Shown piece after piece: positions 1,379 to 3,827 of a stretch of DNA of 39,431 bases; position 1 is the first letter of the stretch, and every line of letters begins with the position of its first letter. The notes beneath the pieces were generated by a model. The model had not been told where the DNA came from and searched no databases. It saw only the letters and a list, made by a program, of their open reading frames with translations. A program made the translations under genes and the position numbers. The stretch is from Atribacterota bacterium (lineage in GTDB: Bacteria; Atribacterota; Atribacteria; Atribacterales; Caldatribacteriaceae), in the NCBI GenBank assembly GCA_039638595.1, contig JBDIWM010000018.1:1-39431 (forward strand). Direction: 5' to 3'.

Positions 1379-2086
1379 ATGGAAAAGATTATGCTTCTCT
1401 TACATCTTCAGGATTTAGATGGAAAGATTCAGAGTCTACAATCAAAAATCGCAAGGGGAGAAGAGGAAATATGTTCTCTTCAGCAGATTCTGGAAGCAGC
1501 ACAAAAAGATCTGGAATCAGCGAAAATGGCTCTGGAGAAGGCAAAAGTCGCCTTAGCTCATAAAGAACTGGAACTGAAAGACGCCGAAGAAAAACTGAGA
1601 ATGACCAAAGGGAAATTATACAGTGGAGAAATCACCTCTTCTAAAGAGCTTGCCCAATGGGAAAAATCAATGGAAAAATTAGAAGTAGCGAAAAACACCT
1701 TAGAAGAAGAAGTGCTCCTGGAAATGGAAAAGTTAGAATCGATGCAAAAGACATTCCAAGTAAAGAGCCAGGCTGTGAGTACAAAAAGAGAAGAGACTTT
1801 CCAGAGTATCGCCCACATTCAAGAAGAGCTAAAAGGTTGGCAAGAGCACTTAGAAACCTTACAAAGAGAACGAGAAAAAGTCATTACCCAAATTGATATA
1901 AACACGCTCTCGACATACCTTGACCTCAGGAAAAAATATACTAATCCAGTGGTGGTACTCCAGGACGAAACCTGCAGTGGATGTTACTTAACTGTTCCTA
2001 CAACCGTGGTAAAAAGCGTTCGCAAACAGGAAGAACTCGTGCGGTGTCCAAACTGTGGAAGATTCATCTATCGAAAGACCTCGTAA
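1379..2086 (+). CDS. coiled-coil protein with C-terminal zinc ribbon (COG1579 type)
   Basis: The 235-residue protein is almost entirely charged heptad-like helix for residues 1-190, rich in E, K, L and Q. It ends in a C4 zinc ribbon with CSGC and CPNC pairs about 25 residues apart. This is the architecture of the COG1579/zf-RING_7 family, proposed to bind nucleic acid but without an established function. It commonly neighbours nif3-like genes, as here. The start is an ATG with AGGA upstream. The last 32 bases overlap the start chosen for the RNase HI gene, in a different frame. Confidence 0.85.
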   Translation: MEKIMLLLHLQDLDGKIQSLQSKIARGEEEICSLQQILEAAQKDLESAKMALEKAKVALAHKELELKDAEEKLRMTKGKLYSGEITSSKELAQWEKSMEKLEVAKNTLEEEVLLEMEKLESMQKTFQVKSQAVSTKREETFQSIAHIQEELKGWQEHLETLQREREKVITQIDINTLSTYLDLRKKYTNPVVVLQDETCSGCYLTVPTTVVKSVRKQEELVRCPNCGRFIYRKTS

Positions 2087-2570
2087 GTACATTGCTTTTA
2101 TTGACGGTGCCTCCCGAGGAAACCCGGGAGAAAGCGCCTTCGCCTTTATCATCGGTAACGAAAAAGGTGAAATCCTTTACCAAGCTTCTGGCCGTATTGG
2201 AATCGCCACAAATAATGAGGCCGAGTATCGAGCACTTCTTGAGGCTCTGGATAGAATATTTTACCTTGGTATTCAGGAAATTACCATTTTTTCGGATAGC
2301 CAGCTCCTTGTCAACCAGATTAACGGGGTATATCGCGTTCACTCCCCCAAACTCCTTTCCCTTTACCATGAAGCCAGAGTGAAAATTGCTCGGCTCAAGA
2401 AACTCGTCCTAACCCACATCGACAGAACAAAAAACTCTCAAGCGGATCGCCTGGCTTCCGAAATACTCAATCAGCGAATCAGTTATAATTGTGGGGAAGG
2501 CAGGTCGGGTAACCGCGGGAGAGTTTCTCCCGAGGAAAGTCCGAGCTCCACAGAGCAGGGTACTGGGTAA
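2055..2570 (+). CDS. rnhA: ribonuclease HI family protein, C-terminus overlapping rnpB
   Basis: RNase H cleaves the RNA strand of RNA-DNA hybrids. All four catalytic carboxylates are visible: D17 in FIDGAS, E55 in NNEAEYRA, D81 in FSDSQ and D131 in NSQADRLA. The conserved domain ends near residue 142. The remaining residues, from about 148 to 171 (EGRSGNRGRV...), are encoded by the first 76 bases of the RNase P RNA gene and look like translated structural RNA rather than protein sequence. The chosen start is a GTG at 2055 inside the zinc-ribbon gene, with no clear ribosome site. A non-standard start nearer KYIAFIDG cannot be excluded. Translation is probably coupled to the upstream gene. Confidence 0.88.
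   Translation: MEDSSIERPRKYIAFIDGASRGNPGESAFAFIIGNEKGEILYQASGRIGIATNNEAEYRALLEALDRIFYLGIQEITIFSDSQLLVNQINGVYRVHSPKLLSLYHEARVKIARLKKLVLTHIDRTKNSQADRLASEILNQRISYNCGEGRSGNRGRVSPEESPSSTEQGTG
2484..2489 (+). promoter_or_regulatory. -10 element of the rnpB promoter inside the RNase HI gene
   Basis: A perfect TATAAT lies 5 bases before the predicted 5' end of RNase P RNA (2495), the right distance for the start point. No convincing -35 hexamer is seen at 16-18 bases, so the promoter may depend on other contacts. It lies within codons 144-145 of the RNase HI gene. Confidence 0.6.
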
Positions 2571-2844: not shown

Positions 2845-2849
2845 TCTCC

Positions 2850-3827
2850 CTACACCCTCCTCCGCAAAGCAGAATGCATAGCAATGGAAACGACGATGAT
2901 GAGGCCATACACAAGTTGAGTCCAGAATCCTGTCATTCCCATGGCAATAATGCCAGCCTCCAAAATACCAATGATAATAGCCCCAATGAAGGTGCCAAAA
3001 ACAGTTCCCACTCCTCCCTCAACAGGGGTACCACCAAGAAAAACCGCGGCGATGGTCTTAAGAAGATATCCCTGACCAAGGGTGGGCCAGAAGTAAAGAA
3101 CTTCTAAGCTGGCCAATACTCCAGCAAAGGCAGCAAAACCACCCATCTGGGTGAAGACAATCATCTTCACTCTATCTACATTGACACCCATGACCCTGGC
3201 ACTGGCAGGGTTATCACCAGTAAAGTAAATATGTGCCCCAAAACGATGGCGATTCAAAACCAGCCATATAACAAAACCAACGAGCACCGCCCAGAGTATC
3301 TGTGCCGGAAGCCTCCCCCCAATCCTTCCTACTAAAAGATAGTAGAGCACACTTTGCTTGGTCGGAACCAGCGTTTTTCCCAAACCGCCACACAGAACCT
3401 GCGTGAGCCCCGCCCAGAAAAATTGTGTGCCAATGGTCAAAACCAAAGAAGGAAGACGCAATTTTACGATGAGTAAACCATTCATAAAGCCTGCCCCTAG
3501 TCCCACCGCGATACAGGTCAAAAGGGCTAAAGGAAAGCTTCCAAAAGCATGAAACACCATGGTAAAGACATATCCACTGAATCCCATAATCGAGGGGAAA
3601 GAAAGGTCCATTTCACCGCTAACCACAATGAGAGTCAAAGAGAGGGCCATAATCATGGAGAAAGGTATGGTAGACATGAAAGCAGCGTATATGTCTCCAG
3701 AGAGAAAGGTTTTAGGGCTTCCTACCATAAAAAGAACAATAATGACCAGAAGAACAAACACAACACTCATTTGGGATCGATGTTCCACCGCCCTTGATCG
3801 TGCCATCCTTCTTCCCTCCAAAACCAA
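2850..3827 (-). CDS. sugar ABC transporter permease, RbsC/CUT2 family
   Basis: The 325-residue integral membrane protein has about 8-10 hydrophobic segments and the branched-chain/ribose permease signatures: SLTLIVVSGEMDLSFPSIM near residues 62-80, GLGAGFMNGLL, the GDNPASARVMGVNV loop near 205, and AAVFLGGTPVEGGVGTVFGTFIGA near 260. It forms the membrane channel for a sugar delivered by the binding protein encoded at 4714-5709 and powered by the ATPase encoded at 3877-4713. It is the last gene of the sugar operon, separated from the ATPase gene by a strong hairpin. The substrate cannot be deduced; ribose-, fructose- or inositol-type monosaccharides are typical for the family. Confidence 0.9.
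   Translation of the reverse strand: MVLEGRRMARSRAVEHRSQMSVVFVLLVIIVLFMVGSPKTFLSGDIYAAFMSTIPFSMIMALSLTLIVVSGEMDLSFPSIMGFSGYVFTMVFHAFGSFPLALLTCIAVGLGAGFMNGLLIVKLRLPSLVLTIGTQFFWAGLTQVLCGGLGKTLVPTKQSVLYYLLVGRIGGRLPAQILWAVLVGFVIWLVLNRHRFGAHIYFTGDNPASARVMGVNVDRVKMIVFTQMGGFAAFAGVLASLEVLYFWPTLGQGYLLKTIAAVFLGGTPVEGGVGTVFGTFIGAIIIGILEAGIIAMGMTGFWTQLVYGLIIVVSIAMHSALRRRV

Follow-up and report, generated by a model that had tools for sequence, protein, structure and literature searches.

The 3'-end small RNAs DapZ (dapB), MicL (cutC) and MicX are transcribed from promoters that lie inside the upstream coding sequence, and in DapZ the promoter is situated just before the dapB stop codon (PMC9438474). Same-strand overlapping genes that arise by loss of a stop codon are described in PMC3887535. 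RNase HI (COG0328) is among the families associated with DUF34 in a survey of the DUF34/Nif3 proteins (PMC8469502). In the open-licence literature on rnpB overlaps, rnhA/CdsZ, tRNA-CDS overlap and rnpA/rpmH we found no report of an arrangement in which RNase HI overlaps rnpB.

The locus investigated here comes from an Atribacterota genome (G000) of family f1 and genus g1. The window, which is the whole stretch of contig that was analysed, is 39,431 nt long and carries a cluster that begins with a tRNA gene and ends with rnpB, the gene for RNase P RNA:

172-246, + strand: tRNA-Met (CAU), the first gene of the cluster (ARAGORN; Rfam)
271-1368, + strand: Nif3/DUF34 protein (PF01784, 2.9e-52)
1379-2086, + strand: CdsZ-like coiled-coil zinc-ribbon protein (PF02591, PF24481; zinc-ribbon motif scan)
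2055-2570, + strand: RNase HI reading frame, GTG start, 171 aa, with its UAA stop at 2568-2570 inside rnpB
2085-2480, + strand: portion of the RNase HI frame coding for the complete RNase H fold, residues 11-142 (phmmer to PDB 3u3g; AlphaFold2)
2484-2489, + strand: TATAAT within the RNase HI frame, a putative -10 box for rnpB that recurs at a similar distance in sister genomes
2497-2846, + strand: rnpB, class A RNase P RNA (RF00010, 311.3 bits, model positions 1-367)
2497-2570, + strand: stretch shared by the RNase HI frame and rnpB, coding for residues 148-171 and the stop
2568-2570, + strand: stop codon of RNase HI, coinciding with the UAA in the P8-tip sequence GGGUAAC (Rfam alignment and fold)
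2850-3827, - strand: convergent ABC-transporter permease, whose stop codon starts 4 nt past the last rnpB base

The RNA matches all 367 positions of RF00010 (E 3e-101, 311.3 bits against a gathering score of 100), and this full-length match above the gathering score places it among the class A bacterial RNase P RNAs. As the sequence-only reading had described, the RNase HI frame stays open into the 5' part of this RNA and stops at 2568-2570, which is confirmed by the ORF and by the Rfam coordinates. The overlap is genuine, though its length, given as 76 bases by counting from 2495, is 74 nt when counted from the Rfam 5' end at 2497. Twenty-four residues (148-171) are wholly or partly encoded by rnpB; the C-terminus as read from the frame is ...PEESPSSTEQGTG, and GAGGAAAGTCCGAGC lies within the overlap at 2532-2546. 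The stretch of rnpB that is crossed comprises the 5' strand of P1 and the helices that follow it, P3, the universal core and half of P8, with positions taken from the Rfam structure line and helices named as is usual for RNase P RNA. The GGGUAAC site also terminates the frame in two other f1 genomes, G001 and G003. A run of 24 open codons in one frame has a chance of (61/64)^24 = 0.32 and is not unlikely by itself.

An overlap of this kind might be suspected to be a sequencing or assembly error, with an indel masking an earlier stop, as in four sister genomes of genus g3 the same TATAAT, read one base out of register, yields a stop. However, an independent genome of the window's own genus, Candidatus Atribacteria isolate Ch31 (G001; L010/L039), encodes an RNase H that is 84% identical to that of the window and has the same overlap, register, tail and stop, despite differences at 82 of 426 nt (19%) in the body of the gene, and G003 has the same ending. 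Since the frame and the stop are shared with an independent genome, they do not derive from a sequencing error, and we give this explanation almost no weight. The hidden indel that had been named as a threat to the overlap is in practice refuted by the second genome.

The protein matches PF13456 over residues 16-136 (4.4e-21) and also PF00075, and the catalytic residues Asp17, Glu57, Asp81 and Asp131 are invariant among 32 relatives, which identifies it as an RNase HI by both its RNase H fold and its D-E-D-D residues. By phmmer, residues 11-142 match PDB 3u3g, and there is also a match to Rv2228c (3hst); similarity to the closest RNase H relatives of solved structure stops at residue 142. In the AlphaFold2 model confidence holds to about residue 143, with the domain mostly above 90 pLDDT, and drops below 50 pLDDT for residues 144-162 and 166-171. 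The fold is thus complete by residue 142, whereas the tail is predicted to be disordered, and the 24 extra residues are probably a passive, unfolded tail on a complete enzyme. No further PF13456 match was found in this genome, which rules against the protein being a dispensable copy of RNase HI; an RNase HII is present on another contig. The GTG start of RNase HI lies 32 nt inside the CdsZ gene (window 2055-2086) without a clear ribosome-binding site, which suggests that translation of the two may be coupled.

Comparison of the 11 f1 genomes indicates that the stop of RNase HI is not fixed with respect to rnpB. RNase HI ends 9-10 nt before rnpB in four of them (G005, G007, G009 and G011) and has its stop at rnpB nt 5-7, so ending at nt 7, in another four (G002, G004, G008 and G010), while the long overlaps end at nt 74 in G000 and G001 and at nt 80 in G003. 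In a second phylum-level group all four genomes have an overlap, of 16 nt (G042), 134 nt (G054), 80 nt (G056) and 3 nt (G057), and in a third group (G041 and relatives) RNase HI is upstream of rnpB in 22 of 28 loci with a gap that is always at least 16 nt. The overlap and the stop position, whose conservation among relatives had been put forward as the check on the sequence-only reading, are not conserved, and the four genomes with a gap, which have the same gene order, are the counter-example that it had named. With a range from a 10-nt gap to an 80-nt overlap within f1, a conserved stop position is rejected, and neither the length nor the stop is as would be found in a conserved, selected gene overlap.

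The loci compared indicate instead that the conserved trait is the order CdsZ-(RNase HI)-rnpB, not the overlap. A motif scan located the CdsZ zinc ribbon ahead of rnpB in every one of the 34 Atribacterota loci for which 600 nt or more of upstream sequence was available. In families f1, f2 and f4 RNase HI stands between CdsZ and rnpB; in the remaining Atribacterota families no RNase HI was found ahead of rnpB in the loci compared. The proposed linkage of RNase HI and rnpB holds as a physical one, recurring in three phylum-level groups, but does not extend to the overlap, since the stop position varies. In another phylum-level group, tRNA-Met, Nif3, CdsZ, RNase HI and rnpB follow one another as in the window (L040 990-3811), and L041 has CdsZ, RNase HI and rnpB in order; Nif3 and CdsZ of L040/L041 were identified by eye from the translations. 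In G013, which has no RNase HI at this place, the CdsZ frame itself enters rnpB by 16 nt (L028 1501-1516).

On the 3' side of rnpB, each of the 11 f1 genomes has a convergent frame whose lowest base lies no more than 10 nt ahead of the last rnpB base and no more than 4 nt past it. There is therefore almost no spacer on either side of rnpB in f1, which supports general compaction as the setting of the overlap. The permease begins 4 nt past the last rnpB base in the window (2846-2852) and 1 nt past it in G001 (L039 3755-3756); in other f1 genomes the convergent gene overlaps the 3' end of rnpB by a few nt, and there is no room for an intergenic terminator.

Where a frame that enters rnpB would stop depends on its register. 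In f1 rnpB frame 1 ends either at the UAG of GUAGG (nt 5-7) or at a UAA (nt 14-16). Frame 2 usually has its first stop in the GGGUAAC sequence of the P8 tip, and the first stop of frame 0 is variable. All overlaps of more than 70 nt in the survey use frame 2, which in most relatives that do not use it is still free of stops to about nt 71-80. Frame 2 goes untranslated in eight f1 genomes; five of them (G004, G005, G008, G010 and G011) encode in it a peptide of the same type, G/S-R...NRG...PEESPSS.EQG.G*, as do both f4 genomes, to nt 71-77; the other three have an earlier UGA (two genomes) or a shifted register (one). As this peptide is encoded in frames that the sister genomes leave untranslated, the tail and the stop are both supplied by the RNA of the ribozyme, in agreement with the earlier claim that the last 24 residues are dictated by the RNA: the unused frame of sister genomes mostly encodes the same peptide.

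Alternatively, the RNA-encoded tail could have gained a function in RNase HI, as a flexible nucleic-acid-binding or degradation tag. It is kept in both genomes of the genus (G000 and G001) and arose again, nearly identical in sequence, in G003. However, the sister genomes encode the same peptide without translating it, so that the likeness comes from the RNA and selection on the peptide is rejected as its source. The tails of G000 and G001 differ at 3 nt, all in the P3 hairpin, of which one causes the sole amino-acid change (R156G) and two are silent. Taken with the predicted disorder of the tail, this makes a functional role very improbable in our judgement.

The relatives also suggest how the overlap arose. 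In four g3 genomes the RNase HI stop (TAA or TAG) is within the TATAAT/TATAGT box, which is read TTA TAA TTG. In g1 the register differs by one base, so that the box is translated as TAT AAT (Tyr-Asn) and the frame continues. G003 has TAC where its relative G005 has the stop TAA. The earlier stop is thus kept in the homologous place in relatives (G005, G007, G009 and G011), as in an overlap formed by stop loss. As the trees put G003 among the g3 genomes with a gap (as sister of G005 in the protein tree) and G000 and G001 beside G002, in which the frame ends at nt 7, the long overlaps have arisen independently, at least twice within f1. For g1 we infer the direction and the exact steps of the change in the stop.

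The TATAAT that had been read as a -10 box inside the RNase HI gene is found at 2484-2489, ending 7 nt before the Rfam 5' end of rnpB, and is conserved in the sister genomes. Matches to TATAAT at 5-6 of 6 positions were found between -20 and -5 in 43 of 67 loci compared with 71 of 670 control windows, with the loci related and the counts not independent; within f1, f2 and f4 the box is seen in 10 of 14 loci. The box persists in G012, in which 194 nt lie between the end of RNase HI and rnpB. Codons 143-147 are identical in G000 and G001, though the gene body is 19% different. No good -35 box was found, the -35 region being poor; the putative embedded promoter has a conserved -10 box at the expected distance. 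It is likely that this TATAAT is a promoter element of rnpB. In L052 and L053 of the second group rnpB starts immediately behind the ADKLA motif that is conserved in RNase HI, with an overlap of 134 nt in L053, and any close promoter would therefore have to lie in codons of the C-terminal helix of RNase HI.

It has been suggested that translation and P RNA may interfere, which is possible but unsupported, and nothing in the comparison calls for it or for a functional coupling. As a regulatory device, the overlap would act through ribosomes that complete RNase HI on the read-through transcript, blocking folding of the RNase P core and tuning the yield of P RNA from the operon. The overlap does span P3, the GAGGAAAGUCCGAGC core, P8 and the 5' strand of helices whose other strand lies in the 3' half, and short or negative spacing occurs in two unrelated groups. 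The stop, however, moves from 10 nt before rnpB to 80 nt inside it within one family and within one genus, and rnpB has its own -10 box even in G012, so P RNA would not have to come from the operon transcript; we regard such a device as improbable. We likewise think it decidedly improbable that zero or negative spacing is kept since RNase HI translation stops the operon transcript from folding as P RNA and so balances both products, although if it were true the repeated long overlaps in two distant groups would be the trace of balancing at one DNA site.

The overlap looks like a tolerated by-product of tight packing and not a conserved device. The reading that we hold to be very likely is of an ordinary rnpB behind RNase HI, with its own promoter, an overlap formed by a small frame change and a passive tail dictated by the RNA. 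A class A rnpB lies directly behind RNase HI, without a spacer, in an old tRNA-Nif3-CdsZ-RNase HI-rnpB cluster, and would start, at a presumed site, from its own promoter with the conserved -10 box in the last codons of RNase HI. In the sister genomes the RNase HI stop is part of this box or falls at rnpB nt 5-7; in g1 a small sequence change would have joined RNase HI to the one rnpB register that stays open as far as the P8-tip UAA, where translation would then end, as judged from the sequence. The P RNA of the cell would come mainly from rnpB's own promoter, because ribosomes on a read-through transcript would presumably hold the 5' strand open. The overlap in all four genomes of the second group (3-134 nt) leaves room for some advantage of zero spacing.

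A protein gene here takes both its stop codon and its final 24 residues from the catalytic core of a ribozyme that is nearly universal, and such overlaps appear and vanish by single small changes. That rnpB ends the Nif3-CdsZ-RNase HI cluster in several phylum-level groups should aid in finding and correctly bounding both genes in metagenomes, where annotation that disallows overlaps would cut short or omit RNase HI or rnpB.

By analogy, the arrangement would work like the non-coding RNAs that are started inside the end of a coding gene, such as DapZ and MicL, combined with a stop-loss overlap. As with DapZ, MicL and MicX (PMC9438474), a non-coding RNA would be transcribed from a promoter, here a putative one, embedded in the upstream protein gene; it differs from these in being the housekeeping ribozyme of RNase P, with translation going 74 nt into its body instead of stopping near its 5' end. 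As in the stop-loss overlaps of PMC3887535, the lost stop is replaced by the next in-frame stop in the neighbour, whose sequence sets the length; unlike those overlaps, the neighbour is a structured RNA, with the stop coming from a conserved RNA loop and the tail from RNA helices. Nif3, CdsZ and RNase HI are adjacent here, as would fit the DUF34/Nif3 survey (PMC8469502), but whereas the main text of that survey does not include rnpB, here rnpB ends the cluster, in three phylum-level groups.
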